Positions 4,683 through 45,000 of a DNA stretch of 64,000 nucleotides are shown here, one piece after another. How positions within the stretch are numbered: the stretch's first letter is position 1; each line of letters starts with the position of its first letter. The translations under genes and the position numbers were made by a program. Origin of the DNA: Asterias amurensis. Its lineage: Eukaryota > Echinodermata > Asteroidea > Forcipulatida > Asteriidae. Location: the NCBI RefSeq assembly GCF_032118995.1, contig NC_092648.1, forward strand, positions 2,123,001 through 2,187,000, in the 5' to 3' direction. The notes beneath the pieces were generated by a model. The model saw only the letters and a program-made list of their open reading frames with translations, ran no database searches and was not told where the DNA came from.

Positions 4683-4945
4683 TTGCAGTCACAGTTCCAC
4701 TCAGAAGCTGCTAGCAGTTAGGCAAAGGCAGTTATAGTCACAGTTCCACTTAGAACCTGACAGCTAAAGTCACAGTTCCACTTAGAACCTGGCAGTTGTA
4801 GTCACAGTTCCACTTAGAACCTGGCAGTTATAGTCACAGTAGAGCCTGATAGATAGTCACAATTAAACTTAGAACCTGGCATACAGTTGTAGTCACAGTT
4901 CTACTTAGAACCTGGCAGTTATAGCTACAGTTCCACTCAGAACCT
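4683..4945. repeat. Minisatellite made from the lectin stop-codon region
   Basis: About seven degenerate units of roughly 32 bases built on CACAGTTCCACTTAGAACC. On the minus strand the unit reads AGGTTCTAAGTGGAACTGTG, which is the last codons, stop and first 3' UTR bases of the lectins (compare the end of lectin D at 28750). The array directly abuts the stop codon of lectin C. Confidence 0.8.
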
Positions 4946-14848: not shown

Positions 14849-15035
14849 ATGAAGCGCCCCAAACCAGGAGAAACTGAAGATGATTTGCTGAGACAGCAGG
14901 AAGATTTCATTTCACGTCAGCAGACTGCGTCAGCCACTGTTGTCAAGCGAGGGGATAAACGTAAGACGACCACAGAGAAAGGACGGGGAGACACCAAGAA
15001 GGTCACAGTGGAGAAGGATGTGGTGCAACTTCCAG
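14849..15035 (+). CDS. RPAP1: RPAP1 coding exon 1
   Basis: Start MKRPKPGETEDDLL aligns with the vertebrate N-terminus (RPKPGE). Preceded by CTAATCCAAG after an acceptor. The donor is CTTCCAG-GTACAA, leaving one base of a codon. Confidence 0.93.
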
Positions 15036-18000: not shown

Positions 18001-21000
18001 CCGACAACAGGTATGTCAGCATCTATTTGTTATCTGGTTGGCTGCATACTGCGCCACAGCACCTTCTAAACCAGTACACGGTACTACTTGTAAAGGAGTT
18101 GAACCTTTGCAAGCATGTCCGTCACACACGGCGACTGTGCCACACTCGCCATTTTGGTGGGCAATAGGTTTACGTGTAAACGTCGCGTCACTCAAAATGC
18201 GCAATTTACTGAATAACGCACAGTGACACTGCCCACCAAATGGCGCATCCAAGACTACTCTGATGATGATGTCAGGTGAATTGGGTCAATAGGTCTCATT
18301 CTTCAAAACGTAGCTCCACATACCTTGCAGAAAAAATACTGAATGCTAAAGCTCATTCAGGATCACTGAGTGACGAGTTTGAGCGCTATGTAAAAAGCCA
18401 CTATTATTATTACCGGTACATAGCTTCAGAGATGTAGTTGGAAAACCACCTAATCAGACTGAAAACTGTTTCCTATTGCAAAGCTCTGTCTCAGTTTGGA
18501 TTGGCAGGACTCGGAAAGTACTGAGTATACAGTGCTTAGAGAATGCTGCTAAAGTCTGAACGATATCAGTTCTAAATGGATCGGTTAAGTACATGTATTT
18601 CAGCTGGGGTACATGTACCTGGGTCCTTTGGACTGCTGGAACATTCCGCTGGAACTTTCAAAATGCGTGTGCATATTCCATGTGTATGGTTTCCTGTAGT
18701 TTGAAACAATCTTGAGTATTCTATCGGGCTACTGGATTGCAGGTGATGCCTATATGTTCCTTTACGCCTAGAATATACCTGACCTGTGAGATGCTCCCTA
18801 GATCACACATCAGTGTGAGGGCAAAATCGAAACACTTTGTATTATAAAAGTTTCTTTGAACTCTTTGAATATGTTACAGCCAGCATCTCAGGGTGATACA
18901 AAAGCAAACAAGAAACAGAGTTTATTCGCCCAGCAATTTGAGAGCTCATCTCCGTCTAGCTTTGGTGTTAATACCCCTAGTCTATTAACCCCATCCATGG
19001 GACCAGACACCAGGAGTAAACAAGATCCTCAAGGCATCAGTGAAGCTGATTCAGTTGAAGAGTCTGTAGAGTCTAATCAACCATCAAGCAGTCTCACTGA
19101 TGATAGGATAGGGATTCATCAGGAGAATTTGAGCAAACTTTCAGAAATGTCGGAGGCAGATATACTTGAAGAACAGAAGAAATTAAAAGCAATGCTTGGT
19201 AAGAAACTTTCTTTAATGGATCAAGTTCAGTTATTGTTGTTAGATATTAAACATACCTCTGTGTTTCTGATCCCAAGTGTTAAACCATTCTTTGTAAACA
19301 TTCGTATCATTAAATATTATTCATAAATACCTGTGACGTTTATCCATTCTGATCGGTCAAGAAGGCATCACGTGTGGGTGTTTAAATGGATGATATAACA
19401 CCAGTAAAAATTGTTTAACTATAGGCGTGACGCAGGAGATTATTGCATGGTGTTATTTTACATGGAACGCATTCAATACACCGGATGGTCGATACTCAAT
19501 GTAAATAAGAAAACTATAGCCTTTCAACCATTGAAATGCGAAATGAGCAGCCAAGGCAGAAATTGAAAATTTTCTTGATTTGGTTTACAGATTTTCCAAT
19601 TTTATTATGCTTTTTAACAAAAGGGCATTTATTAATGAAAATAAAAGAGTTGTGACTCGGTCTTGAACATCCGTTTAAAACCTTGCAGGGTCGTGGCCAG
19701 TTGATAAATGCCCTCACCTTCGGCTCGGGCCTTCATCGCATGTTCACGTTTATCACCAGTTTTAAATAGACGTTTAAGACCGAGTCAGTACTCTTTGATT
19801 CCCTCATTGGAAGTGTCACTACGTAATCCTTTTCTTAATTATAGTAAAGGAGTATTTTTGTTGATTGCAGATCCCAGCTTGCTATCATTCATGCAGTCAA
19901 GAAATATTCCCAAACCAGTTGCATCATCACATGCATCAAAACTAGAACAGAAAAATGTGAGTGTAGCATCAGAACCTATGGACATCGGACCTCCGGCTGT
20001 TAATCAAGAAAATTGTGGAAGCCAAGGATCTGCAGATGGAAAAGTTGTATCATTTACTGATCCAGTTGCTGACATGAAGGTCTCTGATAGAATGGAAGAA
20101 AGTTCAGGGGAGAGTTGTAAGTTTGCATTAATGCTATCAACCATCAATCTTTAATTTTTTTCAAATTTAGTTAAACTTTCACTGATTAAAGAAAATGTGT
20201 CCTCATAATCAAAGTAGGACTGTGGCTGTGGAATTAGGAACTCTCACTCAATTACTGTATGCGCACGCACTCATACAGCCATGACAGTAGCTGGGTGAGA
20301 GGCAAACATCAACTTCAATAAGAAAATTCATTCACATGTCAGTTTTCTCAATATTTTCTTGGGGATAATGAGTTACAGCTAGATCATTGTATCTTGTGCA
20401 GCCAAAGTCTTCCTTGTGAATACAGTGTAAGATGTTTCTTCAAAGTTGCATGTAAAAATTACCCTCTGCGAAAAGACCTTAAAGTCACCTGGAAGTGGTA
20501 TTTTTTCAAAATAAAGCTTTTGTCACTAATATATGTACTTTGATGAGTGGAATGTGAATAAACAGTTAACTAAGGTTTTAAAAAATCAGTTCTTATGTTA
20601 TTTACAAATTTAAGAGTAGACCCCAACCCGAGAGGGCGCTGTTCGTGACGTCAATCGAGGCAGACTTTGCCTGTAATGCGTAGAGTAAACACAATTGCAA
20701 AGTGCATGTACGGACCAAGTCGTGAGTTTGTACGTTTCAAAAAAAGATTTTTTTGGTTTTTCCGGCAATGCCGACCAGGTGTATTGCTGCTGAATGCAGA
20801 AAAACACTTTTTGAAACGTACCAACTCACGACTTGGATGTACATGTACTTTGCACGTGTGTTTACTATACGCATTGCAGGCAAAGTCAATTACTAAAAAA
20901 ATTGTTTTATTGTTTGTAAGCATATACTCTTATGTTTGAAAGAAAAAAAATTATATTTCCAGGTGACTTTAAGAATGTGCTGGTTATGTGTTATTCATGT

Positions 21001-24000
21001 ACTTGAATGTTGCAGTTAGAATGAATTCTTCTTGATTCTTTAGTGAAAGCCCCCGTCACCATCAAGGAAGACTGGGTCCATATGGATAAGACTGAGCCAG
21101 AGAAACTAGAATGGATGAAGGATCTACCAAAGCCATCTGCAAAATCTAAAGAAGGATCCCAAGCTAGATTTGACTTCAATGGACATCTGATAGCTAGAGA
21201 TGCTGATATATCAGTTAGGACAGGATTACATCATCATGGTGATGAACAAGAGGTAGGTTAGAAACATCTCTCTCCTCACAGGTACCCATTTATTCCTGGG
21301 TGGACAGAAGTAAATTTATAGTTAAGACTTAAGCAGAAAATATTGCTCAACAATTTCCTGCTTAGCAGAAATGAGCAGGATACCAGTATACAATTGTTGC
21401 ACACTGTGACGGGGTCCATGGCGTTTTGTACACCTGAGGGGGAAAATGGCACCCGAGGCGAAGCCGAGGGTGCCATTTTCCCCCTAGGGTGTACAAAACC
21501 TATGGACCCCAGTCACAGCGTGCAACAATTGTTTTGTTATACCTTTGTTTAATTGTTATTCCTCTTCTCGAAGTGCTGTTGTCATCTTCAAACATTATTA
21601 CGACGGACTATTCATTGTTTAATTAGCAGACGAACAAGAAACAATTCCCTTGTACCCGCGGTTGTTTCATACACAGCGCTGGAAATCGACCAACGCTAGG
21701 AACGATCAAGGTGATGTACACCGGTGTACATCACTTTTCATGTTACCCGGCCTGTCGAGCCATGTAACATGCGTTTTTGTTGCGCATCAAACTTCACAGT
21801 TTGTTACCGAGGTATAACAATCACAGATGGTACACATGACAGGGTATGTTGGCTGGCAACTTTATTCTTGTAAGCATTTAGTTTACTTTTGTCAGCTAAA
21901 CAGCTCCATGAAATTTGTCCTACCATAATAATAATAATAATTATACAGAGAGGTTATTGAAAGTTATGAACTCTGAGACCCAATTATGTAGCACCTTATA
22001 AGGGTTTACAAGGTGCTACGGCACATTTAGCAGCCACAGCCAGGAACATCGGGGCGAACCCCTCTTCTTTACAACCCTGACAAAATTTAAAGTTGCACAA
22101 TGTCTTTAAGTATTGCCTCTTACATCCTCATCCTTCATCCTTCTCCCCACTGTCTCTTTCTATCTCTTTCTGACTGCCACCTTCTTAAAGTGAACTGATT
22201 ATACTTCAACTGGCTTTCTGTATATTTTCCAGGTACCAGGTTATTCTCTGGAGGAATTGTTTACATTATCACGCAGTGCCGTCACTCAGCAACAAGTTCT
22301 TGCATTGCAGACTCTAGCAAGAATTATCTACAATGTAAGAAAAAAATACTGATAATGTTTTGTTTTTAATCAAACTAACAAACACTGACAGCATCAAAGA
22401 AAATAGTATTACATTTAAACTATGAGAAGATAGTTGTCTGCAACTAAGTAATCCTTTAAGGTGCTTGAAAGGTTGAATTTGTTCCGTATCAGATAGATGT
22501 ATCTATTTTGTTGCATTTTTGAAAGTGAGATGAAAAAAAAAGGGTTTTAGATGTGGGATAAAAACCCCAGGTGGGGAAAACCCACACAATAACATGAATA
22601 AGGCAGTGACTGAAAACTCAATCCACATTAAGCTCTAGTCTAAAGATAGGATTTGAAACAGGGTTCACAGGTGTGAAAGGCAGGCAAAGAAGACCCTAAG
22701 CCAACCTTGGCTCGATTTCACAAAGCAATAAAATCCATTGTAAGACAAATTATCAGTATCACCATAGTGATTTGCACTTACTAAGCAACTACGATTGATT
22801 TGCATTACGATAATCATAGCTCTTTGTGAAATCGGCCCCAGGTCCCACAAAAAATGAGTATTGTTGATAAAATGTAGTTTGTTTTAATGGAAAAATAACC
22901 ATTGTTTTTAATAGTTATTTGGTTGTACACATCATCTTCGAAAATCTTCAAGAGGTAAATGAAATCTCATTTGCTTTGTGATTTTCTCCCATAGACTTGA
23001 GCATGAGTTTAGTTTAAACACTGCTTGTTTTGTGTAGATGCCTTGGTTGGGTTTTTGATAAGCGCATCATATAAGTCCATATTAAAATCACTATTTTAAT
23101 GAGTTTATCATGATTAATTTGATTGTTTTTTGTTCAGTGTCGATTGAAGCAACTAGGGGGAGAACTCTTGGAGCCCTTGCTTCCCCAGCTCTTGAAGTCT
23201 GGTATACTATTTCTCTTAAGATGGTCGTTGGACAGCGTCAATGAAGGAGTTATAGCTTCAACCATGGAGGCCTTAGCAGCACTACTTATACAGCCTGGAG
23301 ATGAGGTAAGGAAACGTATGATGAGTTAAGCCCAGTTCATACTTCCTGCGAATGCGAATCAAATTTTGACAGCCCCTGCAGGGGCTGTTTTCGCAGGAAA
23401 TGTTTCGCCGGAGTTGAGCACATTTCAACTGTTGCAATTTATTTGTTGCGAGTTTGTGATGTTGAAATTCGTACGCATTCGCATTTGCAGGAAGTATGAA
23501 CCAGGCTTTAGGGAGTTTTCATGAGTAAGCAATACTCATGAGTCTATGATTGAATTACAACTAACATCTTCCATTGGGGCCTGTGGATCTTACTGCTAGC
23601 CTTGAGATGAAATAAGGAAACTTAGGGAGTTAGGGAGTACTCATGAGTCAATACTATACTCATGAGTCAATACTGAAATTAAAGCATCCTCCTTTGTGGC
23701 CTTTCTACTCATACAGCCTGTAGAGAAAGTAAGGAAACTCATATTGAAAAAGGAGTTCTCATGAGTAGGAAATTACTCATTAAGAGTCAATGGTGAAACT
23801 ATAGCATCCTCCATTGAGTCCTGATGGGTGCGCTTCTCATACAGCCTGGAGATGAAGTAAGGAAAACTCATACTGGAAAAAAAGAGTTCTCCAGAGTAAG
23901 AGATACTCACGAGTCAATGATGGAATTATATCATGTTTCATTAAGGCCTTAATAGTGCTGGGCCCAATTTCATAAAGCTGTTTTGCAGAAAATTCTGCTC

Positions 24001-27000
24001 TGCAAATTCCTTTGCTTTATTTAGCAAGAAATGAGTGTGTATCACTTACAGCAATGGTAAATGTACAGTATTTTATCTGGTAACCTAATTTTGCTATTGA
24101 AAGAGTTTTCTGTGCTTAGCAAGTTTTTGTGATTACAGGTTTTATGAAATAGGGCCCTGCTGTGCAAGCTGGAGATAAGCTAAGGAAACTCATTTTGAGA
24201 AGGGAGTTCTGCTTAGTACTAAATGCTCACAAGTCAGTGAGTGACATGCCTAAACCTCGGCACTGAGAACCCTGATAACATGAAAGTCAAGTCAGAATGC
24301 TGGGGGTTAGGTTTATGAATATCTCAGTGCTACACAGTTTTGAAGCATTAATAATAATAATAACAATAATAATAATAATATCAAAGTCTTATGTATATAT
24401 AGCGCACATATCTACCTAACAAGGTACTTTGGGCGCTTAGTATTATATATACAAACTCTCAGAAAGGTTGGTTAATGAAGTGATGAACACTGAGACCCAA
24501 TTATGTAGCGCGAACATCTATCACTAAAACTATTTTTTTTTTTTTCAGGGTACATTGGATCGTGTATTTAGTTGGCATCGTGGTATGGAGGTTCCTCCAA
24601 TGCTTCCAATTTCATCAGATGATGATACTGAAGATGTAACTGAAGAAGGAGAAGAGATTCAAGAGAAAGATCGATCGGATCCTCACATTGCGGAGAAAGA
24701 TGCTATCAAGGTAAGTGAGTGGCTGGAGAAGATTTGCTTTTATATTGGAGCACATTGCGCTACAGCACCTTGTAAACCATTACATGGTGCTAAGGATTAG
24801 GTCTCATAAATCAAACTTAGTCCCATTATAGTCCCAATTAAGGCTTTTTTCTTTCAGAATTTATTGGAGGTGTATATTGCAAAAAACTTGAATTGGTGAC
24901 GTAGACCTAGGAACATAATGTCAGTTGGCAGACAAACTTAGGTAACTTCATGTCCTATTACGTTGGACAAATCTCTAGATATTCCTCCTTCGTCATATTG
25001 GAAACACCGTCAAGGTTTATTGTTGCTTTTTGCACGACTTCAAAAAATAGTTTTGGAAGACTGCTGAGTGAAGCATGCTAGAGAAAAATAATAAGGAATG
25101 TGCATTGTCACTGTGTGTTTATTGTCATTCGATGCCGAGGTCCGCATTATGAAAGTGCACCACGAGGTGATATATAAAGGTACAACACAAATTTAGGGCA
25201 TAAGTTAAGGGAGAATTATAACAGGTTTTCTATCCTGCTGAAACATGGTCACATTGGGTTCAATAATATGGCTACTGCATGAAATTTGCGCCATTGTGAA
25301 CTGGACGCGCATCAAAACATCACGCTACTAATTTTCAGGAAATAATTTCCGAACCGGGCATACAGCACCCTCTCATGATGGGAAGAGTAGTCAGCATGTA
25401 CAAAATTTAATCTACGGGAAAATATTCTTTTTATGGTTGACTACACAAATGTTTAACACATGAGTTATTTGGGGAATTATTTGTGGTTGTATCCAATTTG
25501 CTATGTAAAAACGAGACCGTTTTCATCCTTAATGGCTCTTGCACAATGGCAACTAGTCACGCAATATTGGATCAATTAACTTGATGTCTGAATGGGCTGG
25601 CCAGGTCTTAATATTAACGTAATATAATAATATTTTGAGTTTATATAGCGCTTTTTCAGGTCTTGTGTTAAATAACCCTTGGAAAAAAAAATTAGGTTAA
25701 TTTCTTTCCTAAAAAGTCTTCAGGTAAAACTGAGCTGTTTTTTTTTTTTTTTTTTTTTTTTTAAAACAATTTTTCCTTGATACGTAGCTTGATAGCTCGA
25801 AAGTTCACCGTATGGAATGGAATAAAGGTTTATTTGAGCTTGTAATGTGAATGCTGGACAAGTTTATACCTTCATAATTTTTTCCAACTGCAGTTAACTT
25901 GAAACAAAGTTGCAATATAGAAATTTTATAATTTGATGCAGACCTGATGTAGAAATCTTACTTAAACCGCCATCATGGTGCGTTTCAGTTATTTGGTCTT
26001 CAATCGATAACCACTAGGGAGTAATTGAATAGCATATAATGGTTGGCTAAGCAATTAACTTGATAAATTTTGTGCGCACACAGTCTATGAGCTTCACCAA
26101 CAACTTATTTTCAGACAGTATACAGAAAGGGCATAAGCAATATAAAATGATACATAAAATAGAATGGTTTTGCAAGCACACTGATACAGATAAAATGCTG
26201 AATTTGTTCATGTTGGATGTGCATCAGTTTTCATTTCATAAGTGTTGCAAGCAAAACAAAATATTATGACAATTTTGTTTTCTTCCTTTCTTGTTGTTAA
26301 AGAATTTTGTGACTGTTAAATAAATTTTGGACCATGGGGTTAACACGTATTATTTGAATGTCTAAAGTTTAAAACAACATGGTGAAATAGAGACCCTGTT
26401 TACACTGCTTACAAATGACTTCCACATTTCATCTATATCATGTTAACTTGCATGCAAAACACGAATACAGTCAGTTGCCTTCCACATGGACACAATATCT
26501 GTATAATAATTCATAGACTTTTCGAGGTGAGATTTTGTCCCTTGGTTGTTGTTGCCAGATAAAGTAAGACAAAGTAAGAAGTAATATTTTTCATTTGTCA
26601 AATCCAAAAAAAGCTGTCATCCCCCTTATAATATTATGAAAGTCTTCTATCTTTCGACTGCCAATTTGATTCCTTTGAAGAATAAGATTTAATTCAAATG
26701 TTTTGGGGGAGGGGGGTTCAATTAAACAAAATTCTACTTTAAACCATGCCATTTTTTTTTTCAGCAGAAAAACTGAAAATAAGTTGACAGCTCAAGCTCT
26801 TTTCTGTTTTTGAAGAGTTGCAATCAACATTTTTTAAGTTGTGGTGAAAAAATACTGATGGATAGCATTCCAATGATGTTATTTTTTTCTAAAAGAGGAA
26901 GTTGTAATCAACATTGAATGAAGCAGTATCCCATGCATACGTATTTATGATCACACAGACAATGTTTCAGTTTACACTAACTCATACTTGTCTGAAGCAA

Positions 27001-30000
27001 CTTCATGCAAAACATAAGGCTCAACACCATCCAATTTTGTTTTGTAATTGTGGGTGCTGTTAATTTTCACCAAGCTTTAAAACTTCTGGGGATAAATTCA
27101 GCTTGCTTTGTTAAAATACAAAGAGATGAACAAGGTTATTATGTCAGAAATCCAAATTGTACAATTCTTATGCTGATTCAGTGACCACACATAGGCTAAC
27201 TGTGTTTAAATACTTCTTGGTGTGATTTTCTCTCAACCAATCAAAATGGAGAAACTGTCCCAGGTATTTATGAATGCATGTTAATGACCGTGGTTGGTTG
27301 CTGGCCATTGTTAATAGACCTCTCGTAAGCCTATTCAAAATAGCAATACAATTAACTGTGGCCATGTCTTTCTTTCCATAAAACAATTTTTTAAAATTCT
27401 CTTTAAAGATTTTGACGAGAGTAAAAAACCGAGTCAAGGCAAGGTTCTTGTAGCTCCCCCTTTAACTGGTCAAGTCAAGGCCTTGGTTATTCAAAATTGC
27501 AATTTCAATACTAATCAATAAATTAATAAGCTCCTGAGAAGCATTTGTGCTGAACAATGGAGGACTCTTCATCACCTTAAAGGCAGTGGACACTAATGGT
27601 AATTGTCAAAGACTAGCCTTCACAGTTGGTGTATCTCAACATATGCATAAAATAACTAACCTGTGAAAATTTGAGCTCAATCGGTCATCAAAGTTGCGAG
27701 ATAATAATGAAAGAAAAAATCACCCTTGTCACACGAAGTTGTGTGCGTTTAGATGGTTGATTTCGAGACCTCAAGTTCTAAACTTGAGGTCTCGAAATCA
27801 AATTCGTGGAAAATTGCTTCTTTCTCGAAAACTATGGCACTTCAGAGGGAGCCATTTCTCACATTGTTTTATACCATCAACGTCTCCCCATTACTCGTCA
27901 CCAAGATAGGTTTTATGCTAATAATTATTTTGAGTAATTACCAATAGTGTCCACTGCCTTTAATTGGTTTTGTGTGCATTGGTTTACAGACAGGGACCTT
28001 AATGAGCAAATCAAACTAAATCGCTGGCAACCAAGGTATTATGAACTTAACCATGCCGATGAAACCATCACCCCATACTTGCTATAATTGGTGCAGTCTG
28101 TCATTTAACAAGCTACATTGAAGCATGGAACAATAATGACTTTGCTCTATCGTTGTATTTACAAACCTTAAGCAAAAATTCTTTTAGTCACCTACATCCT
28201 TGCAGTATCAGTTCCTCCTAGTCTTTGAAAGTGGACTGCATTTGGTTCCTGAGTATGGCAAGTTCTTTCAGTGTCATCACTTTCAGTATTCTTGTAGCTC
28301 TCCTTCAGTCGCATTTGCTGATCGTATCTCCATGCATGTCCTGCATCAGTCCATGGACAAGTTTTGGGAATCATTGCTACCTTCTTGTGACGGATGCCAA
28401 GACCTTTGATGAAGCTGAACAGTACTGTCAGAGTTTGTCACGCTTTGGCAGACCATCTCATCTAGCGTCAATTATGAACCAAGAGGAACATGACTTCCTT
28501 GTCCTGCTTATCAAATCCGTTTATGGAAAAAGCGGCATGAAAACCTGGTTCGGCTACCGCAAGGACTGGTCCGGTAGCTTTGCCTGGCTCGACGGCAGTC
28601 CATCCGGAGGGTACACCAACTGGTACCCTGCTCAGCCCAGTGGCGATGGACCCTGCACCGAGATCCTTGAAACTGCTACGAGTGGAACCAACTTGTGGAA
28701 TGACCTGTCATGTAATTCCCTCAAGCGTTCTGCTTGTAAAATAGCAGCCAGGTTCTGAGTGAAACTGTGACTAACTTACCTATCGGTACTGGCTTCATGG
28801 GTGACTATTAGGAGAGAAAGAGATACTTTGTGATTTATTTATCATCATGTGCCTGGATGAATGTCATATCGAAAATGTGACTGGGAACAGGTTGCAAGGA
28901 AGTACTGTAGTCCAAAAATGTGTCATGAAGAAAACTGAGTCTCAAAGACACTGAACGTCAAAGTGTTGTAGTTTTTCTGCCCTTCATAAGTCTTTACAGA
29001 AAACTTAAAATCCACATGGGGAAGGAAAAATATTTCTTTGAGCCTTTTTAACATTCTAACCGTCATGAACTAATTTTGTTTAAAAGAGTTACTGCTTATA
29101 AAAAGACCTTTTGCTGCAGCAAAAACTTGTATCCTTCTTTGTGTGCCTGAAAAAGGACGTAACAGCCTTGTGACCTTCTTCAACACAGCGTGTGCCCTAT
29201 ATTGCTGTAGAAGTTGTAAATCAAAAACTTAAAGTTTGTTTTTACCTCGATTTGGGGATATTATTTTTGCATCTGTTAAAGCAAAGAAAAAAAGAAAAGG
29301 TGCAATGAACATCAAGTATGACATAAGACATAAAACCAAAGAAGCCAAGCAAAATGAAAATCAGGCGCAATGCAAAATGAAAATTAACCCCAAAACAAGA
29401 ATATGACAGTCAAAAAGCGATGCAAAACAAATGTAGCTTGTACCTTGTATGATTTGGTCTACGGACAGACAGAGATGAAAGTAACCATTGAACATTGATT
29501 GCTGGTGAACAGGTTAGTTGCAAAAGCAAAAAAAAAGGGGGGGGGGGTTACATTGACAATAGTATTGAGATTGTCACACCTTGGCACGCACTGAAACAGT
29601 TTTCGTTACCATTAAGTTAGTGAAAGTGAATGCTCTTGCTGTGTCGTCATATTATTTTCAGTTCCTCTAGTCTCTGATAGCGAAAAAATTAGTTACTTAA
29701 TTATTAAGCACTCCAATTTACAGAGTTTTTAAATAATGAATTTGATACTCGTTTTTTAGCGAGCGGTAAAGAAAGCGTAGTAATGCTCAGTTTTCGTAAG
29801 GCGCCTCATTAAGGCCTTTTGTTTCTTTATTTTTTTCGGTGTGGCTTTTTATGATTTGATACTTAACGCATTTTTTTTATTTTGGGTTGAGTTTCTGGTT
29901 TTGAGTTACATTTTTTTTTTGGGGGGGGGGGGGGCTGGCACAAAAAAAAAATTGGAAGCTCCCGGATCTACAGACATCAAACACAAGATCTGACCGGAGC

Positions 30001-33000
30001 CAAGTCTATCTTATACCATGCTTATTTGAAGTTATTTCATGTAAAAGCAACTTAACATAATTCAGTTTGCTGTCGCAAGTAGCTGGTACATGTAGCTTGT
30101 ATCTCATGTGCATTGGTATGGACACTGATGGAAGTTATTGTATCATCAGCAAATAGATCGATACCAATGATGTGGCGGGTGTATATTTGTATATTTGCAA
30201 AAAAAAGGGAAAACAATATTGATTGTTATTGACATCAGCACAGTTGCCTCTGCAGTGGAACTGAAAAAGTAACCACAGCACTAGCCATTATTGTTGAAGA
30301 AAAGCTACACTTAGTAGGGTACTAAGTCAGCGCAAGTTAAGGCCTCAGCCTTTGCTTTATAGTAAACTATACCAAAACGTGCCTATTATTATTCTTAGTC
30401 CTCGCTTAAATTGTCAGTTCCTCTAGCCTTTGATAGCGGACTGTGTTTGGTTCCTGAGTATGGCGAGTTCTTTCAGTGTCATCACTATCAGTATTCTTGT
30501 AGCTCTCCTTCAGTCGCATTTCCTGATCGTGTGCGCGTTTTAATGCACAAAGAACAGCTATCGTCCAATCATTTGCCTCCTTTGAACCCAGTGAAGGCGC
30601 TGTACAGATCATTATTTAAAAGAGTCACTGGTCTCAAAGATCAGTAACGTGATTAACGCACGAAAGAGATGGGAACTATCAAAAGCTCAAATACGGCCCC
30701 TGAACATGTCTGGAAGTACTGCTGAGAGAAAAGTCACAAAATTTGGAAAATTTTAGCCGATTAATTTGCTAAAAAAGTATTTATTAATGGGAATAACAGT
30801 GTTCGTACCCGGTCTTCACTGCGTGGTAATGACCTTGGTTGGTGGCTGGCGCTGTTATCGGACCTCGTCTCCGGCTCGGTCCGTTAACAGTGCCAGCCAC
30901 CAACCCGGTCATTACCACGCAGTGAAGACTGGGTACGAACACTGTTATTCTCTAATTGTCAACTGTTAATTTTCAAAGCTCATAGTCTGGTTCTTGAAAA
31001 TATGCTTTGTAGTTGAGTATGTGTTTGAGATTATAGGCCCCATGCAAGCTGAGCAGCCTTAATAAGAATTGCTTTTGAATTTGAGTATGAGTTCAACTTT
31101 TTAAATTTTTTTTTTAAGCGGGGGGGGGGGGGGGGGGGGGGCATAGGTATTTTTATGGCAATAACAGTGAAAGGAGATGATCTTCATTGTGTGTAAAAGA
31201 CCGTGGTTGGTTGCTGGTCATTGTTAAGGGACCGCTCCATTAATATTATTGCCTAAACATCAACCAAAATTGCAATCTATTAAACTGCTGATGGCTCTTT
31301 TTGTCCTTGTGCTCATAAAAACAAAAGTTATAAAAAATTCTTCATGATAACCGATCAAGGCAAGGCGTTGGTTGTTCAAAAGTGTATGCTATTTGTCAAT
31401 CAAAGGATTCTCATTAGCTTAATGTTGGTTTTATTGTGAAAGGTAGGTAGTTAGTACTGTGTGTGCATTGATTTAAAGACAGGGAGGGAAGGTAACTAAA
31501 TTAAGCAAGGCAATCATAATCCAGCTAGCATCCATGGTAATATTAATTGAACAATCTCCCTATAATTAGCCATCATTGGTGTAGTCGGTCATTTAACAAG
31601 CTACATTTAGTAAGGAATTTTGAAGCCAGCAACTGTTATATCTTAGCTCTATCGTTAAATTTAACCATCATAGCCAAGATTTCTCATTAGTAAATTTGTC
31701 AGTTACTCTAGTCTTTGCTAGTGGAGTGATTCGGTTCCTGAGTATGGCGAGTTCTTTCAGTGTCATCACTTTCAGTATTCTTGTAGCTCTCCTTCAGTCG
31801 CATTTCCTGATCGTATCTCCCTGCATGTCCTGCATCAGTCCATGGACAAGTTTTGGGAATCATTGCTACCTTATCGTGGCGGATAAGAAGACCTTTAATG
31901 AAGCTGAACAGTACTGTCAGAGTTTGTCACGCCATGGCAGACCATCTCATCTGGCATCCATTATGAGCCAAGAGGAAAATGATTTCCTGGTCCTTCTTAT
32001 CAGATCCACTTTCAACCAAGTCGATACGAAAACCTGGTTTGGCTACCACAAGGAAAGATCCAGTGGCTCTTCAACCTGGCAGTTTATTGATGGTAACCTT
32101 TTCATGGGTTACACCAACTGGGGATCTGGCCAACCCGGGGGGGATGGATACTGCTCCGGGATGGTTCAGACTGCTACAACTAATACAGACTTTTGGAATG
32201 ACCAGAAATGTCGTAACCGTAGGAGTTCCGTCTGTAAAATAGCAGCCAGGTTCTAAGTGAAACTGTGACAAACTCATCAACAGTAACTTGATGTATTCAT
32301 TTTGGTATCTTAGCTTCAAGCGTTGTGCAGTGAAGAAACAACTTTGCATTAATTATGAACAACAGACAGAACAACAGTTAATCAGGAATCTGGGTTTCAT
32401 CATGCACTGTGTATCTCCAGTGGATTCAAAGTCATAGCAATGGAGGACTTTAACATTTCATCTCAATTGAATCAATATTTGTTGAAAGTTCTTTTCCGAT
32501 TCATCCACTTCTGGGCAAGGCATCATGCAAATTTGTATTTCCTGCTAATACGGGGGACTTTCCCTCAGCCTCACTTTTTGGCCCAGTGGGCTACACCTAC
32601 TTGGTCTGCGGATATCCCGGAGGCGATGGAAACTGCACAATGTTACTTGAAAAGAGTGGAATAACTTGTCATGTAATCAACACAAACGTTCTGTCTGTAA
32701 GACTAGTTAGGTTATTAGTGGAATAAACTAAATAAACACTCACGCAAAAACAAAAGTGACACAAAACCCAAAAAGCAATTCAAAATAGAAAGATAAATAA
32801 TTTTAAAATGTCCATTACAATGATACTGACAACAAATTTACCTGAATAATTCATTAACAACAACTGATTAAGGCAAAGCTTTGGTTGTTCGTATATACTA
32901 ATTTAAATTGACAATATACACCAATTAGCTTTCAATTCTGCTGAACAAAGGGGATATTCTCAATCTAACGAGTCTCATCAATTTGGGCTTAATTGACGTA

Positions 33001-36000
33001 GCTTGTTGGTACCTTGTCTGCATTGGTTTATTGGCCTTAATTAAATCAATCTAAACTGATGTGGCTGGCAACCCGGTAAAAAAAATGAATTAATGGTGTC
33101 GTCACAAGCACCATGTCAATGAAATCGTCTCACCATAATTAGCCATCATTGGTGTTGTCTGTCATTTAACAAGCTACATTGAGTACGGAATTTTCAAGCC
33201 AGCAACAGAAAAGCCTTACTCTTTATCGTTATATATAAATCTTTTTAAAGCAAGAATTCTTTTAGTCACCTACATCCTTGCTTAAGTTTTTAGTTCCTCT
33301 AGTCTTTGAAAGTGGACTGCACTTGGTTCCTGAGTATGGCGAGTTCTTTCAGTGTCATCACTTTCAGTATTCTTGTAGCTCTCCTTCAGTCACATTTCCT
33401 GATCATATCTCCCTGCATGTCCTGCATCAGTCCATGGACAAGTTTTGGGAATCATTGCTACCTTAGCGTGATGGAAGAGAAAACCTTTAATGAAGCTGAA
33501 CAATACTGTCAGAGTTTGTCACGCCTTGGCAGACCATCTAATCTGGCGTCTATTATGAGCCAAGAGGAAAATGACTTCCTCATCCTTCTCTCAAGATCCA
33601 TTTCAAACCAAGATGAGACAGCATCCTGGTTTGGCTACCGCGAGGACAGATCCAATGGCTCTTCAACCTGGTATTTTATTGATGGCAACCCTTCCGTGGG
33701 CTACAACAACTGGGGATCTGGCAACCCCAGCGGCAATGGTCAGTGCGGCTTGATAGTTCAGAAACCTGCAACTAATACAAGCTTTTGGAATGATCTGACA
33801 TGTAGTAAACCAAGGAGTTCCGTCTGTAAAATACCAGCCAGGTTCTAAGTGAAACTGTGATAACTCATCGACGATAGCTAAATGCATTCAGTTTGATATC
33901 ATAGCTTCAAGCGTTGTGCAGTGTCTCATGGTAAAGGAACAAACTACTTTGCATTACTTACGAACAACAGACAGAGTGCTGTTTAGCAGAGTGCTTTAAA
34001 GCAGGATATGGGTTTCATCATGCACTGTGTATCTCCAATGGATTTAATGTTGTAGAAAAAGAAAGGATTTAAACATTTCATTTCACTTTAATCAATATTT
34101 GTTGAAAGTTCTTTTGTGATGAATTTAAAAAAAGATGTAGGCCTATGCATCCACTGCTGGGCAAGGCATCATGAAAATTGGTATTTCTTGTTTGAGGGGA
34201 GCCGATGGGCTACACTAACTTGGTCTGCGGATATCCGAAAACTGCACAATAATACTTGAAAAGACTCAAACGTTCTGTTTGTAAAAGAGTTAGTGCAACT
34301 GTGATTGACTAGTTGATTGTTAATGTCTTCAGTTTGATGACCCAGTTTCAAGGGCTGTACATTGTCTTAGAAAGGTAAAGATAATTTTGTTGACAGACCG
34401 GGTGTTATAAAGCTGGATGTGTACTTGCACTTTATTTAATGTAGAGCTACACAGAACCATTTAATCTAGATGACTATCTTAAATCATCATTTGTCAAAAT
34501 TTGTTCCCCAAAAGCTGAAACTGTTATTGCAGGTGTTGTTGCAGAGCACATTTTTTTGTTTATGGTTAGTTTATGACCACTTTAAACATTTTTGCTGAAC
34601 ATAAGCTAGTAAATGTTGTATATTACTCTTGGGTGACTTCATCATCATTTTACTTATTTATTCAAATTCTAGTTGCTAGTTCTTTATTGGTGTATTAACG
34701 ACCCAAATGTCACGTATTAGTTGAATTGGTAAGCCTGTCCATATTGCTGATATTTCTGCAACTCTGACAGACAAGTTACCTTAATGTCCCAGACCTGGTA
34801 ACACCTCGATGGGGAAGTTTAACTATTTGTACAATGCGTTTTCGAAAATTGACACAAACCCTATGTGTAGAGTGCATGCGTGGACCTCCATTTTACAAAG
34901 TGACACACAGGTCATACGTTTGAAATAATCACTTTGTGAAAACGGAAGTTGTCTGTTTTTATTGCAGTTTCTCGATCAAACACAAACCTTTCTTACTTAT
35001 TGCTTATTATTTTAGGCAATACAAATTTTAAAACAAACAATATTTTTATGAAGATTGAAGCATCAAGTGTCCACTCTAAAAAAACTAGTTGAAAATACTA
35101 ACCCCCCCCCCAAAAAAAATAGTTGTGTTTTAAAAAGTGTTGTCTTTAATTGCTAATTTTTACTAGAATGGTAGGTGTGTGTCAGTTCAAGGCATTTGTG
35201 ATAATTTGTTTGGACTTTAAATATGATTGGAATGCCAGATCCAGTAGTAAGTAATTGTTTGGGCCTACCTGCCCCAGTCCTTCTGAATCCTTTACTCTGG
35301 CATTTGAATATAGAAAGATTTGGAACTATAGTAAGGATAAAAATGTTATTGCCAATAGTTATCTAATCCTATAGTCTCATATTAAATAAGTAAGCTAAAT
35401 ACAGAAACCCAAGCTAGACTTTTATGACAGCTGAGAAAATGGTTTATGCTCACCATACCTTCAAAACAATTTGAAGGTATTTAGCTCATTTTTGAACAAA
35501 CACAAATTTGCAAAAACTTGATGGCAACATAGTTTCCACTGAGGAAATTACTCTTTTGTTTTCAGCGATTGTTTTGCCAAAACTGGCACAGCTCTTGTTA
35601 GTAATATTCTTTCATTTCAAATAGCTTTTAGTTTTACAAACTACCTGACTAATCCTATTAAAAATTCATTATTATTCACCAATTTGATAAATAGAACGTT
35701 ATTGGCATACTTAATGGCACCGGACACTATTGGTAATTACTCAAAATAATTGTTAACATGAAAAGTTACTTGTTAACGAGCTATGGAGAGCTGTTGATAG
35801 TTTAACAATGTAAGAAACAGCTCCCTCTAAAGTAACATAGTTTTTGAGAAAGAGGTACATGTATATTGAAACTCAACAACATTTGTTTGTAAACCACTGG
35901 CACATACTTTTGTTCAATTCAATTCAATTCAAAAATGGTTTATTAAAACATGACTCGCAGTTAAAAAAACTGAATTGCACATGTCAACATGTTTGGATGT

Positions 36001-39000
36001 CAGTTGTTGTAGTAAATTGCAAAAGTAGTTTCTGTCTTTGAAAAGGATGATCCTATCTGTTAGAATCAACCATCATAGACAACATTTCATATTTTTCAAT
36101 TTGAAATCTCAAAATAATTGTTAGCATAAAAACTTACTTGGTAGCGAGCAATTTGAGAGCTGTTGATAGTAAAAAACATTGTGAAAAATGGCTCCCTCTG
36201 AAGTATCATTGTTTTAGAAAGAGGTAATTTCTCACGCAATTTATAAAAGCCTTAAGCTGAAGCCTTTTGTTATGCATCTCTGAAAGTACACAAAGTAATG
36301 CATTAAAGGTGTTTTTTCTTTACTTATTCTCTTGCAAAGTCGATGACCAATTGAGCCCAAATTTTCACAGGTTTGTTATTGAACCTGCTTTTCATTTTAC
36401 ACAGGCATGATCCCTGTTTTTTTAAACACCCATGATATGATGTTCCAATAACCCTATATTCTGACAGATCTATACAGCAAGGCATTTTCTCCTTGGTAAA
36501 GGGCACCCCATTAATGGGGGAAACTGTAAACTTCTACTGTAGCATTTCAAGGGCACCAAAGGCAATGACCAGGGGGCATGGAGGCGAACGCCTTCATTGC
36601 CTCTGTGAACTATCAGGCCTTGAGTTTACTTGTAAAATGTCAACGCTAGTGATTATGAAATAATTTAGCTCTTACCCAACGAAACGCTCATTTGTGAACA
36701 AAAATGAAATTGCTCTTTAGCAATTAATTAATATGAGCATTGAGCCAGATGAAAGCCTATTGTGTTAATTGTAACCTTATGAAAAAATAATCACCATAAA
36801 AATTTATGATAGCCAGAAAAAAGCCTTGAAAAGCTATTCATGTTCATTTTAACCTTATAAAGAATTAATCGCCAACAAAATTACCGGTTGCCATTAGTGA
36901 GAGGCATTAATTGTTCCCTAGGGACTTATTATATCTGAACAAATATTATTACCAAAAAGGACACAAATTAAACATCAGTAATAAGCCTTGGCTATCTCTT
37001 TAAATTTTAACCACGATTCTAGTAATTCACTGCAAGAGTCTTGAAAACAAGTTACCTTTCAGCAAACTAGAGCGGTGCAGGGACTAGAGGGTTGACCAAT
37101 GCATGGGGTGCGATCTTGCTTAATGAGTCTGTGTTTTTGGTCGAAAATATCAGTGTGAGGAAACAAGCCAAAACAGACCAACAGGGGTGAAATAAAAATA
37201 TTTAAAAAAATATAAAAAAATTAAATGACAATCTTCGTTTTCTTTTAAATTGGCAACTTGTGGACGTCAGTTGTTTTTGTAAATTGCAAAAGTAGTTTCT
37301 GTCTTTGAAAAGGATGATCCTATCTGTTAGAATTAACCATCATATACAACATTTCATATTTTTTAAATTTGTAGACAGACTTAATATTTCAAATCTCATT
37401 TTGGATTTTAAGCTCTTGTTGGTTTTAATAAAAGGGTCACAAGTCATGTATTAATTTACTGCTACATGTATATAGCTAGGGATCATGCCCAGTACAATAC
37501 AACCAGTTCCCAATTTTGAAACATCTTATTTTGTGCTTACAGGTGCGAGTTTCCATTCCATATCGCTGCTAACCGTAAGAATATGAAAGGCATTTTGGCC
37601 TTCTGTTGCTTACACTGTATGAAATAACTGACATAACCATGCAAATCCATGGTTAACAATCAAGCTGGATGACTGCCTCATATTTATGCTAACCTGCTAT
37701 ATAGCATGAAAATTTGCTAACTGTTAAGCAGCCCAATGAAATTGTCCCCATTTTTTGTCTTAAACTTGGCATGATCTCATGATTTCTAGTTTCCTAGTCA
37801 GTTTCCCTTGTGGTTTATAACTTGAAGTGTAAACAACTTAGCAACATATTATAAAAACTAATTGTAATTGTTGTACAGAAGTGGTACTGTTTGTTGACTC
37901 TAGATTAAAATTGGAAAATCATTTTGATCGTGTATGTCAAGTAAATTTCTAGAAATATTGGTGTGATTAATAAGATTCATGATGTTTGTAAAAAAGTTGT
38001 CTTAAATTTTCCTCATTAAATCAACACATTAAACCAACACAATAATAAAAACTTAAAGGCACTGGACACTATTGGTACTTACTTAAAATAGTTTTCAGCA
38101 TAAAAACTTACTTGGTAGCGAGCAACAGTATAAAGCATTGTGAGAAATGGCTCCCTCTGAAGTAATATATTTTTTTAGAAAGAGGTAATTTCTCACTCAA
38201 AAAAGAAAAGACTGAAACCTTTTATTATGCATCTCTGAAAGTACACAAAGTAATGCATTAAGGGTGTTTTTTCTTGATTATTCTCTTGCAAAGTAGATGA
38301 CCAATTGAGCCAAAATTTCCACAGGTTTGTTATTTGATGCATGTTTTAGGATACACCAAGTGAGAATACTGGTCATTGACAACTACCAAACTTGTCCAGT
38401 GACATAACCATTGAATACTTGCTGGGGGGGGGCATTTAGATCACTAAATTGAACCTGCTTTTCATTTTACAACGGCATGATGCTCTGTTGGCTTTCATTT
38501 GAGATACAAATCCCTGTTTTTTTAAACACCCATGATATGATGTTCCAATAACCCTATGTTCTGACAGATCTATACAGCAAGGCATTTTCTCCTTGGTAAA
38601 GGGCACCCCATTAATGGAGAAAACTGTAAACTTCTACTGTAGCATTTTAAGGCCACCAAAGGCAATGACCAGGGGGCATGGAGGCGAACGCCTTCATTGC
38701 CTCTGTGAACTATCAGGCCTTGAGTTTACTTGTAAAATGTCGACGCTAGTGATTATGAAATAATTTAGCTCTTACCCAACGAAACGCTCATTTGTGAACA
38801 AAAATGAAATTGCTCTTTAGCAATTAATTAATATGAGCATTGAGCCAGACGAAAGCCTATTGTGTTAATTGTAACCTTATGAAAAAATAATCACCATAAA
38901 AATTTATGATAGCCAGAAAAAAGCCTTGAAAAGCTATTCATGTTCATTTTAACCTTATAAAGAATTAATCACCAACAAAATTACCGGTTGCCATTAGTGA

Positions 39001-42000
39001 GAGGCATTAATTGTTCCCTAGGGACTTATTACTTCTGAACAAATATTACCAAAAAGGACACAAATTAAACATCAGTAATAAGCCTTGGCTATCTCTTTAA
39101 ATTTTAACCACGATTCTAGTAATTCACTGCAAGAGTCTTGAAAACAAGTTACCTTTCAGCAAACTAGAGCGGTGCAGGGACTAGAGGGTTGACCAATGCA
39201 TGGGGTGCGATCTTGCTTAATGAGTCTGTGTTTTTGGTCGAAAATATCAGTGTGAGGAAACAAGCCAAAACAGACCAACAGGGGTGAAATAAAAATATTT
39301 AAAAAAATATAAAAAAATTAAATGACAATCTTCGTTTTCTTTTAAATTGGCAACTTGTGGACGTCAGTTGTTTTTGTAAATTGCAAAAGTAGTTTCTGTC
39401 TTTGAAAAGGATGATCCTATCTGTTAGAATTAACCATCATATACAACATTTCATATTTTTTAAATTTGTAGACAGACTTAATATTTCAAATCTCATTTTG
39501 GATTTTAAGCTCTTGTTGGTTTTAATAAAAGGGTCACAAGTCATGTATTAATTTACTGCTACATGTATATAGCTAGGGATCATGCCCAGTACAATACAAC
39601 CAGTTCCCAATTTTGAAACATCTTATTTTGTGCTTACAGGTGCGAGTTTCCATTCCATATCGCTGCTAACCGTAAGAATATGAAAGGCATTTTGGCCTTC
39701 TGTTGCTTACACTGTATGAAATAACTGACATAACCATGCAAATCCATGGTTAACAATCAAGCTGGATGACTGCCTCATATTTATGCTAACCTGCTATATA
39801 GCATGAAAATTTGCTAACTGTTAAGCAGCCCAATGAAATTGTCCCCATTTTTTGTCTTAAACTTGGCATGATCTCATGATTTCTAGTTTCCTAGTCAGTT
39901 TCCCTTGTGGTTTATAACTTGAAGTGTAAACAACTTAGCAACATATTATAAAAACTAATTGTAATTGTTGTACAGAAGTGGTACTGTTTGTTGACTCTAG
40001 ATTAAAATTGGAAAATCATTTTGATCGTGTATGTCAAGTAAATTTCTAGAAATATTGGTGTGATTAATAAGATTCATGATGTTTGTAAAAAAGTTGTCTT
40101 AAATTTTCCTCATTAAATCAACACATTAAACCAACACAATAATAAAAACTTAAAGGCACTGGACACTATTGGTACTTACTTAAAATAGTTTTCAGCATAA
40201 AAACTTACTTGGTAGCGAGCAACAGTATAAAGCATTGTGAGAAATGGCTCCCTCTGAAGTAATATATTTTTTTAGAAAGAGGTAATTTCTCACTCAAAAA
40301 AGAAAAGACTGAAACCTTTTATTATGCATCTCTGAAAGTACACAAAGTAATGCATTAAGGGTGTTTTTTCTTGATTATTCTCTTGCAAAGTAGATGACCA
40401 ATTGAGCCAAAATTTCCACAGGTTTGTTATTTGATGCATGTTTTAGGATACACCAAGTGAGAATACTGGTCATTGACAACTACCAAACTTGTCCAGTGAC
40501 ATAACCATTGAATACTTGCTGGGGGGGGGGCATTTAGATCACTAAATTGAACCTGCTTTTCATTTTACAACGGCATGATGCTCTGTTGGCTTTCATTTGA
40601 GATACAAATCCCTGTTTTTTTAAACACCCATGATATGATGTTCCAATAACCCTATGTTCTGACAGATCTATACAGCAAGGCATTTTCTCCTTGGTAAAGG
40701 GCACCCCATTAATGGAGAAAACTGTAAACTTCTACTGTAGCATTTTAAGGCCACCAAAGGCAATGACCAGGGGGCATGGAGGCGAACGCCTTCATTGCCT
40801 CTGTGAACTATCAGGCCTTGAGTTTACTTGTAAAATGTCGACGCTAGTGATTATGAAATAATTTAGCTCTTACCCAACGAAACGCTCATTTGTGAACAAA
40901 AATGAAATTGCTCTTTAGCAATTAATTAATATGAGCATTGAGCCAGACGAAAGCCTATTGTGTTAATTTTAACCTTATGAAAAAATAATCACCATAAAAA
41001 TTTATGATAGCCAGAAAAAAGCCTTGAAAAGCTATTCATGTTCATTTTAACCTTATAAAGAATTAATCACCAACAAAATTACCGGTTGCCATTAGTGAGA
41101 GGCATTAATTGTTCCCTAGGGACTTATTACTTCTGAACAAATATTACCAAAAAGGACACAAATTAAACATCAGTAATAAGCCTTGGCTATCTCTTTAAAT
41201 TTTAACCACGATTCTAGTAATTCACTGCAAGAGTCTTGAAAACAAGTTACCTTTCAGCAAACTAGAGCGGTGCAGGGACTAGAGGGTTGACCAATGCATG
41301 GGGTGCGATCTTGCTTAATGAGTCTGTGTTTTTGGTCGAAAATATCAGTGTGAGGAAACAAGCCAAAACAGACCAACAGGGGTGAAATAAAAACATATAA
41401 AAAAAAATTTTTTTAAAAATTAAATGACAATCTTTGTTTTCTTTTAAATTGGCAACTTCCTTCCTGATAAATAGCAGGAAACAAATTGACATTGGAAGAA
41501 AAATGCCGAATGTGTTTTAAATAAACACTCGACTTGGAAACCTCTTTTTCGCAGTTTTAGTCCTTCGCGTTTCAATTGGTGCTTCTACTTTTGAATCAAT
41601 CGTGGTACCAACATGGGGTTTTAAAAGTATTTAAGCATCTCTTTTCAGATGTACATAAAAATGAAATTTTTTTCTGGGTCGACAAATGACTCATTTTGCT
41701 TGATCGCATCACATTAAGTCTGATTTTTTACAATTGTCCACACAAAAATTAAAAAGTGATTGTTGTATTGTTAATAAAAAAAACATTAATGATAAAATCT
41801 GCAACTCAATATTTTAATTCTGAAAGTCCAAGTATCAGACCATGGTTCAGACAGTCTATCAGGCCATGAATTATACCTTTGAAAGGGCAAGGCCATTTTT
41901 ATTTTGCAAAGGCCACTTCCATAGGAAAATCTTAAAGTCAATTGGAAACTTTTGAAGGGGCACCAAGGCCAAGACCAGGGGCCATGGTCTCTGTGGCATG

Positions 42001-45000
42001 CGTGTAATTCTAGACCTAGTCTATCCCTGCAGCTTGACAAAAAGTTAACAATTTCAATATAATAATAAAAAATAATAATAGCAATAATACAAGTGGCTTC
42101 TTATAAAGCACACATTCACTCAGTGATGCTCAAGGCACTTCTCCTTTTAAATAGCACCATGTAATGGTTTTCAATGTGCTGTGGTGCAGTATGCTGCCAA
42201 TCAAGCCAGGAACACCGCGGTGAACCCCTTCTCTTTTCGATAAGTGCACTGGGTTCTTTAATGTGCGTTACACAACACACAGGACCTACGGCTTTACGTC
42301 TCATCCAAAGGATGAAGCATCATGGTTAAGTGTCTCGCTTAAGTGTCTGACACAGGTGTCACGACTGGGACTTGAACCCACACCCTGCTGATAAGAAACA
42401 CCAGAGCTTGAGTTCAGTGCTCTTAACCGCTAGGCCACGACACGCCTAAGTATGTTTTGAACAACAATCTCAAAGAAAAATGTTTGCAGTAATTGTTAAA
42501 CCTGTCATATTTTCTCTTTGCAGGGTTTGTTACGAATGACACTTCTTCCCAGGCTTCGCTACATTCTTGAAGTAGTCCGACCCCCAGCCCCTGTCGTCTT
42601 GAACACCTTAGCAATCTTGATAAGGATATGTCGTCATTCTCAAGAAGCATCTCATCAAGTAATGAGATGTCCTCGTCTTCTTCAAACCATCTTTACTGAG
42701 TTCCTTCCCATGTCATCTTGGAAACAACAAGGTGGGTACAAATCATGCGAGGCTATCACTTTGTGGTTATCTAATGTAAACGCATGCGTGATACTCCATG
42801 GAGGCAGCAGAGGCAATTGCCACCAGATGGCCTTAGTCATTGCCTTGATGCCCTGTGAAATGCTCCAGTAGAAATTGGAATAAAATACAAACAATTCTCA
42901 TGAAAACCATAGGCCTAAAACAAAGAAAACCCATTTATGGTCACCAATCTTTTTTGCTCTACAACAAAACTTGCCTTTGTTTCTGAAAAGTAACATCTGT
43001 AATCCTTAGTGGCGTGTCATGGATTAGCAGTTAGGAGCACCGGACTCAAGCTCTGGTGTTTTTGATCAGCAGAGTGTGGGTTCAAGTCCTAGTCGTAACA
43101 CCTGTGTCCTTAAGCAAGACACTTTAAACCCATGATAGTCCTCCAGATAGGATGTCAAGCTGTTTGTCCTGTGTGTTGTGTAATGAAAAAAAGAAAGAAT
43201 CCAGTGTACTTATCATAAAGAGAAGGGGTTCGCATCGGTGTTCCTGGTTTGATTGGCAGCATACTGCGCCACAGCACCTTGTAAACCATTACATGGTGCT
43301 ATGTAAATAGAGTAGGTCTCATAATTTTGGTTAATGTTATTAAACAATTTTTGGTATTATTTAATCTTAGATGATGTCATCAGTGATGTGTATGGCTATC
43401 CAGTGGTTTCAGCAATGAAGTTAATTCATGTACTCTGCTTGTCTGGAAGGAATACTACTGCCTCATTAGTAAGTCAAAAATCGCTGCATATAACATTCTT
43501 ATTCTTGTTGGTTCACTAGTTCAACAATTTTGACTACCAAAGACTTTTGTTGGACTAACTTCTTGACTTGAATAGTGTCTGGTCACCCATCATTGTTTTT
43601 TCTTGTAAACTATTTGGAACCAATGCTACAGGTTATCATAGTTTTTTTGTTCTTAAGAGCAGGGTATTATACTTTGGTAATGACCCCTTCTCCCACACCC
43701 CCCCCCCAAAAAAAAAAACAACCCAAAAACAAAAAAGTATGAAAAAAGGGTAATTTTTTCAGCGAGCTTACAGTTTTTACTGTGTTTTCTCAACAAGCAG
43801 ACTTTAAAACCCAGTTATATACATGACTGTTTGTTTTTTGAGGTTAGATGGAATATCTCTGCTGTAATGAATAAGATTTTGTTGTGAGGCCAGTTTACAT
43901 GTAGGTTTAATTGCATTCATTTTGGCTGCTTGAAGGTCCCAAACTGCCGCACAGTGGTGAGTTAGGATTGTGATTTGTGTCGTTGCCCTCTTAGGTAAAA
44001 TATCTCACTTGGGTGAACTATTGCTGTATTGTAAATCGCCCATATTGATACAAAAGGTATATGGAATTAAGGGTATTAAAAGAATTGTTTTTAATGAAAA
44101 TGGTTTAATTCTGTTTAGCTTTCAGGTGGTAAGTTGATGTCTGTGATTATGCGGTATATCACCATAGAGCCAGCTGATATGCAACTGAACATCGCTGAGG
44201 CATATCATCTCAGTACAGTAAGTCTTCATACATGGAGGATATGTGTGTCTTATGGATTGGCATGCGATGAATACAGGTAAGGTCTTCTGTGTACTAACAG
44301 GGGCACTATTGTAAATTGCAGTCCCTACCCAATTGTGTATTGAATTCTGTGGAATATTTCTCTTAAGTTTCCTTCCATATCTACAACTGAAAATGTCTGC
44401 CTTGTCTTCTGTACATAGGGTTCTTGGCTAGTTTAGTTATTAAGTTCAATTCTCTTAGAATACTTGGCAACACAATATAAATAAGTTATAAGGAGAAACT
44501 ATAAATAAATAGTAAACTTGCTGGTACAACCATGTGTAAATTTCTTAGGGTGAGTGTTTGCTCTGAAAAGAGCCGGTTTGGTCTCGACGTTTCAAACAGT
44601 ATACTCTGCTCATCTTCAAGAGAATGCTTCAAACAATACTAAATAAGTTAATCAAACAATTACATTTATATTGTTTCTACAGGGAGCTTTATCCATTGTT
44701 AATGCAACAACTTCAGCTGTTCCAGAGATTATCTGTCCACCCTTTGGCCTCTACTGAAGAAGAATCCGATGTTGCTGTACATAGATTGCAGATGACCAGA
44801 GCCTGTGCCCTCTTTGGTCTATTGGAGGGAGTAGTGAATGTTGCTGGAACAGCCACTGAGTTGCAGGCTAAATTGAAAATGAGGTGAGTGTTTCTAATTG
44901 AGGTCATAGTATAACGCATTTTGGTAGTGCATTATTCTACCACTATTCTTTGTGGCATGTTGTGGTGGAGTGGTCTAGTACACAAGACCCTAGCTTTGGT

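Follow-up and report, generated by a model that had tools for sequence, protein, structure and literature searches.

Three C-type lectin-like genes lie on the host strand within one intron of RPAP1 in the sea star Asterias amurensis

Can a conserved housekeeping gene carry several genes of an unrelated family in one of its introns, on its own strand, with host and guests both remaining functional? The question is raised by a stretch of 64,000 nucleotides of the A. amurensis genome (assembly GCF_032118995.1, contig NC_092648.1, positions 2,123,001 to 2,187,000 of the forward strand; hereafter the window), for which a preliminary description had placed three open, intronless lectin genes inside intron 11 of RPAP1. 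Here we show that three C-type lectin-like genes, designated L1, L2 and L3, lie wholly within one intron of RPAP1. Sequence comparison suggests that they are probably real nested genes, transcribed separately and derived from an Asterias family that was copied as DNA, and that RPAP1 removes the intron which holds them.

The host gene was identified by searching with the RPAP1 pieces of the window, the top match being RPAP1 of Asterias rubens (P0001, with the precomputed Pfam domains PF25766, PF08620 and PF08621). The features of the host that bear on the nesting are as follows.

14849..58235, + strand: RPAP1, the host gene, with a coding part of 27 exons and 1440 codons (tblastn of A. rubens P0001 and splice modelling)
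24549..24710, + strand: RPAP1 exon 11, ending in phase 0 (splice model)
24711..42523, + strand: RPAP1 intron 11, 17,813 bp (splice model)
42524..42731, + strand: RPAP1 exon 12, 208 bp (splice model)

The model gave a full-length collinear match to P0001, with identity at 1391 of 1443 aligned positions, and contained one stop, which was terminal. The exon 11 donor is GTAAGT after 24710 and the exon 12 acceptor is CTTTGCAG before 42524; the splice search required GT-AG, with GC donors permitted at two junctions, so that the consensus is partly built in and is not independent evidence. Exons 11 and 12 join in frame at a phase 0 junction, over which A. rubens RPAP1 is continuous. By a splice matrix that is small, trained on RPAP1's own 26 sites and hence a rough tool, the exon 11 donor scored 12.8 (best of the 1016 GTs scanned in intron 11, 11.3) and the exon 12 acceptor scored 14.7, second to one of the 969 intron 11 AGs at 15.2. 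The predicted RPAP1 gene is intact, as it had appeared to be, and the intron length of about 17.8 kb given earlier agrees with the model, whereas the 25 other introns of RPAP1 measure 359-2,428 bp (median of all 26, 848.5 bp).

The three genes within this intron are listed below.

28255..28758, + strand: L1, intact C-type lectin-like gene, 167 aa (open reading frame; PF00059, E 4.6e-17; the window-encoded protein P0124)
31744..32256, + strand: L2, intact C-type lectin-like gene, 170 aa (open reading frame; PF00059, E 1.2e-16; A. rubens orthologue P0121, tree 98/95)
33336..33848, + strand: L3, intact C-type lectin-like gene, 170 aa (open reading frame; PF00059, E 2.1e-16; the window-encoded protein P0122)

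All three are single-exon frames from ATG to stop on the strand of RPAP1, which bears out the frames and the orientation given in the preliminary description, and their Pfam Lectin_C (PF00059) scores of 63.1, 61.8 and 61.0 bits compare with a curated cut-off of 22.6. Each encodes a hydrophobic N-terminus, by eye a putative signal peptide, and one C-type lectin domain, and the proteins are 70% (L1-L2), 65% (L1-L3) and 76% (L2-L3) identical. The best 60 of the 157 solved sequences matching L2 were headed by endocytic receptors that contain C-type lectin-like domains; snake snaclecs and lithostathine came lower, as did the lectins CEL-IV and CEL-I. The AlphaFold model of L2 was unusable, with a mean predicted local distance difference test (pLDDT) score of 40.2. 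Calcium-dependent sugar binding by C-type lectins follows a rule of EPN or QPD together with WND motifs. WND is present in L1, L2 and L3, but each carries a replacement at the third position of the EPN/QPD motif (QPS in L1, QPG in L2, NPS in L3); EPN is kept in 8 of 23 aligned family sequences and QPD in 2 of 23. Classic calcium-dependent sugar binding by the three proteins therefore appears doubtful, and because of this replacement we prefer the label 'lectin-like' to the earlier 'lectin'.

Are these three copies alone in the window? Searches by tblastn revealed further members and remnants of the family.

4940..5440, - strand: E1, intact member of the family lying outside RPAP1 (coding part, stop excluded; A. 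rubens orthologue P0125 in the tree)
2093..2572, - strand: E2, intact member of the family lying outside RPAP1 (coding part, stop excluded; the window-encoded protein P0130)
1..403, - strand: E0, frameshifted family copy in two frames, truncated by the window edge
30460..30531, + strand: lectin relic, first 24 codons only
32544..32707, + strand: lectin relic, C-terminal part in two frames

Since E0, E1 and E2 all lie 5' of RPAP1 on the strand opposite to the host, and a wider Asterias family exists, the three-gene array holds good as three intact genes in the intron but not as an isolated group. By eye, E0 is similar to full-length A. rubens P0123, and the family extends past the window edge. 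A piece matching the relic at 32544-32707 also follows L3. In the protein database L1, L3 and E2 are recorded as separate predicted proteins (P0124, P0122 and P0130). Rfam gave no match over the whole window, and Pfam gave none for the open reading frames at 7413-7808 (-), 32454-32723 (+) and 36436-36660 (+).

How the copies arose is indicated by the DNA around them.

31555..32655, + strand: L2 unit of the L2/L3 tandem duplication, comprising upstream DNA, gene and downstream relic (alignment with 33128-34264)
33128..34264, + strand: L3 unit of the same duplication (alignment with 31555-32655)
28050..28254, + strand: L1 upstream DNA common to L2 and L3 (alignment)

The L2 and L3 units align over 1178 columns at 77%; the alignment starts some 190-210 bp ahead of the ATG, runs through the downstream relic and marks L2 and L3 as a tandem DNA duplication. 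L1 can be aligned with both from about 200 bp upstream until 18 bp beyond its own stop. We compared the region from -260 to -40 in 21 pairs, taking the local alignment score against the maximum of 200 shuffles. The conserved upstream region claimed earlier for the three genes was recovered, with scores of 70 against 28 (L1-L2), 123 against 29 (L1-L3) and 132 against 33 (L2-L3). Shuffle maxima were also exceeded by L3-E2 (47/31), L3-E1 (33/26) and E1-E2 (36/25), and by the 30460 relic with E1 (31/25) and with E2 (43/27), so that upstream DNA was alike in eight of the 21 pairs. Separate promoters are the simplest reading, because proximal upstream DNA is common to paralogues some of which lie outside RPAP1. 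We rejected the possibility that L1-L3 are retrocopies of one another, since they share upstream and downstream DNA and L3 shares upstream DNA with E1 and E2; the single-exon family may have an older retro origin. Entry into the intron was either of several units together or in two events.

The range of the family was then considered. At E<=1e-3 we found 21 relatives: five from A. rubens, their contig measuring 33,825,921 bases; nine from A. amurensis and three encoded in the window, on a contig of 38,009,675 bases; and four others whose contigs measure 1097-2527 bases. At E<=1e-20 a profile search returned 22 proteins, namely these 21 and one more, and those with a species name were all from Asterias. 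The close family is thus seen only in Asterias among the named proteins of the database searched, and appears linked to RPAP1. Its members (P0121-P0142) show 53-87% identity to L2 and carry one PF00059 domain. The contig sizes also bear on the idea that misassembly put the lectin block into the RPAP1 intron, which we consider extremely unlikely: A. rubens RPAP1 too lies on a contig of 33,825,921 bases, the size of that holding its five relatives, which speaks for linkage and not for nesting, and the window is without a single N, although near-identical 2.1 kb repeats between the lectin-like genes and exon 12 (36410-39356 against 38510-41458, 99% over 2952 columns) speak in its favour.

In a tree of 24 proteins, L2 grouped with A. 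rubens P0121 (98/95) and that pair with L3 (100/98), while E1 grouped with A. rubens P0125 (100/98) and L1 was closest by path to E1. As L2 groups with P0121 inside the L2/L3 group, the L2/L3 split is older than that between A. rubens and A. amurensis, a divergence put at about 28 million years in PMC11090083. Since L2 has its orthologue in A. rubens, a clade of L1-L3 alone was rejected (approximately unbiased (AU) test, p 5.6e-07); a clade of L1-L3 with P0121 was not rejected (AU p 0.31). A DNA tree of six copies grouped L1 with E1 and E2 (99/99).

Do the frames bear marks of function? The ratio of non-synonymous to synonymous divergence (dN/dS) was 0.46 for L1-L2, 0.43 for L1-L3 and 0.72 for L2-L3, with dN>=dS in 1, 0 and 145 of 1000 codon bootstraps, respectively. 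When neutral evolution of the lectin frames was simulated, 315-380 of 2000 stayed open at 0.1 substitutions per site and 83-98 of 2000 at 0.2. These comparisons show purifying selection on L1-L3 as a set. They also bear on the view that the intronic copies are passengers, i.e. recent insertions whose frames are still open and which are not expressed. The relics in intron 11 show that copies decay there, the L2-L3 ratio is indistinguishable from 1, and L2 and its A. rubens orthologue disagree in 23 of the 97 C-terminal columns; all this would suit passengers. Yet dN is below dS in L1-L2 and L1-L3, though part of this constraint may predate insertion, and the L2 frame has been kept since the split from A. 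rubens, and we regard the passenger view as unlikely.

Divergence is uneven along the gene. The pooled proportion of synonymous differences (pS) is 0.078 in codons 1-25 and climbs towards the 3' end, reaching about 0.5 in the windows that cover codons 105-153, and the low 5' value points to gene conversion or to constraint at the 5' end. Between L2 and P0121 we counted 0 differences in 74 columns of the first part and 23 in 97 of the rest (Fisher p 1e-6), a contrast at the protein level; no significant contrast of this kind was obtained for E1/P0125 (3/74 and 5/93) or P0128/P0126 (5/74 and 12/93). Either gene conversion or fast change in the ligand-facing half may explain the L2/P0121 pattern. 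Residues 1-96 of L2 and P0121 are identical, all 23 differing columns lying beyond them. Positive selection on the C-terminal half is unsupported in the window, the C-terminal dN/dS being 0.45 (L1-L2), 0.42 (L1-L3) and 0.84 (L2-L3); over all ten pairs it exceeded 1 in L1-E2 only (1.15).

How, then, would three genes and their host be expressed from one strand? We propose that family units were copied as DNA, together with their proximal upstream sequence, into RPAP1 intron 11, and that one unit was tandemly duplicated to give L2 and L3 before A. rubens and A. amurensis separated. Each lectin-like gene would start at its own proximal promoter and end at its own 3' signals in cells that need the lectin, and RPAP1 would excise the entire 17.8 kb intron through its strong outer splice sites. 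When RPAP1 and the lectin-like genes are both active, interference would be possible, as has been described between host and nested genes in human (PMC3192792). We infer for L1-L3 promoter activity, tissue restriction, secretion and a role in recognition or agglutination.

Alternative processing of the host transcript might instead yield the lectins, with exon 11 spliced to an acceptor before a lectin ATG and the message ending within the intron. An AG does stand 32-33 bp before the ATG in L1, L2, L3 and E2, and for L1 and L3 a frame read from exon 11 through this AG continues into the lectin without a stop. But this AG has a low score in L1 (rank 117 of 969) and in L2 (rank 148), against rank 18 in L3; that of L2, at 32 bp, is out of frame with exon 11; E2 has it outside RPAP1 on the opposite strand; and the signal peptide would presumably be buried in the fused protein. 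This processing is, in our judgement, quite improbable, and the AG could be the acceptor of an intron in the 5' untranslated region. Still bolder, and highly unlikely, is the idea that the array is a regulatory device, in which lectin induction would end or divert RPAP1 transcripts in intron 11, or splice exon 11 onto a lectin unit, and would thereby oppose expression of a variable recognition family to that of a general Pol II assembly factor.

Several observations weigh against separate transcription of three selected genes, the reading we prefer. L1, L3 and E2 have TATA-like words near -100 to -90, which L2 lacks. An AATAAA within 500 bp downstream was found for L2 only; neither AATAAA nor ATTAAA occurs in the 1645 bp scanned after L1, and the first ATTAAA past L3 lies 1536 bp away. 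For L2-L3 taken alone, dN below dS is not significant. Thirteen of the 21 upstream pairs, including L1 and L2 against E1 and E2 as well as the six that involve E0, scored within the shuffles. Finally, most nested genes run antiparallel to their hosts, and same-strand nesting is the rarer kind: it accounts for 76 of the 296 human pairs and 55 of the 248 mouse pairs (PMC8467205).

Repeats occupy other parts of the locus. The segment 36410-41458 consists of three copies of the unit of about 2.1 kb and makes up much of the remaining intron 11; a 75-aa open reading frame of the first copy had no Pfam match, and Tandem Repeats Finder detected no large array in 24711-43400 (longest period covered, 500). 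An inverted repeat in introns 11 and 12 (42138-42446 and 43011-43315, 81% over 314 columns) flanks RPAP1 exon 12, the length of which is not a multiple of 3, and its arms could favour skipping or circularising of this exon. A short repeat with the ends AGGCAGTGGACACTA and TAGTGTCCACTGCCT beside TTAA, resembling a piggyBac-type miniature inverted-repeat transposable element, is present near the lectin-like genes inside and outside the intron (27577-27963, 5767-6143, 6616-7001 and 1283-1601) and also elsewhere, e.g. at 58329-58689.

The locus matters in that a gene family so far seen in one genus has apparently moved into a conserved housekeeping gene, where it occupies an intron in the less common of the two orientations. 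With L2/L3 older than the species split, the locus is a natural setting in which transcriptional interference can be tested on both orthologous and paralogous units, and it draws attention to a family with a similar 5' part and a diverging C-terminal half. Among the hits listed from the literature searched, with passages of PMC9382459 included and most subscription papers outside the search, no lectin array in RPAP1 is reported, in line with the preliminary description; the main text of the A. amurensis genome papers (PMC10625585 and PMC11090083) is without words beginning 'lectin'.

The nesting of the lectin-like genes is real, and both same-strand nesting and families within one intron are already in print. 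The wider Asterias family (P0121-P0142) is the same family as L1-L3, which have QPS, QPG and NPS where some of its members have EPN or QPD. Mammalian same-strand nested protein-coding genes (PMC8467205, PMC3192792) likewise lie within an intron on the host strand, and single-exon nested genes are common among them; unlike these, L1-L3 are three members of one family in one sea star intron. In insects, GMC oxidoreductase genes form a family array in the large intron of the conserved gene flotillin-2 (Flo-2), family and host being different from ours (PMC3240667). The TipE genes of insects, nested in CG18675 (PMC3240667), are similarly several genes of one family that share a single intron of a conserved gene unrelated to them, but they encode sodium-channel subunits and are kept in most insects examined, whereas L1-L3 are lectin-like and their family has so far been found in Asterias only.

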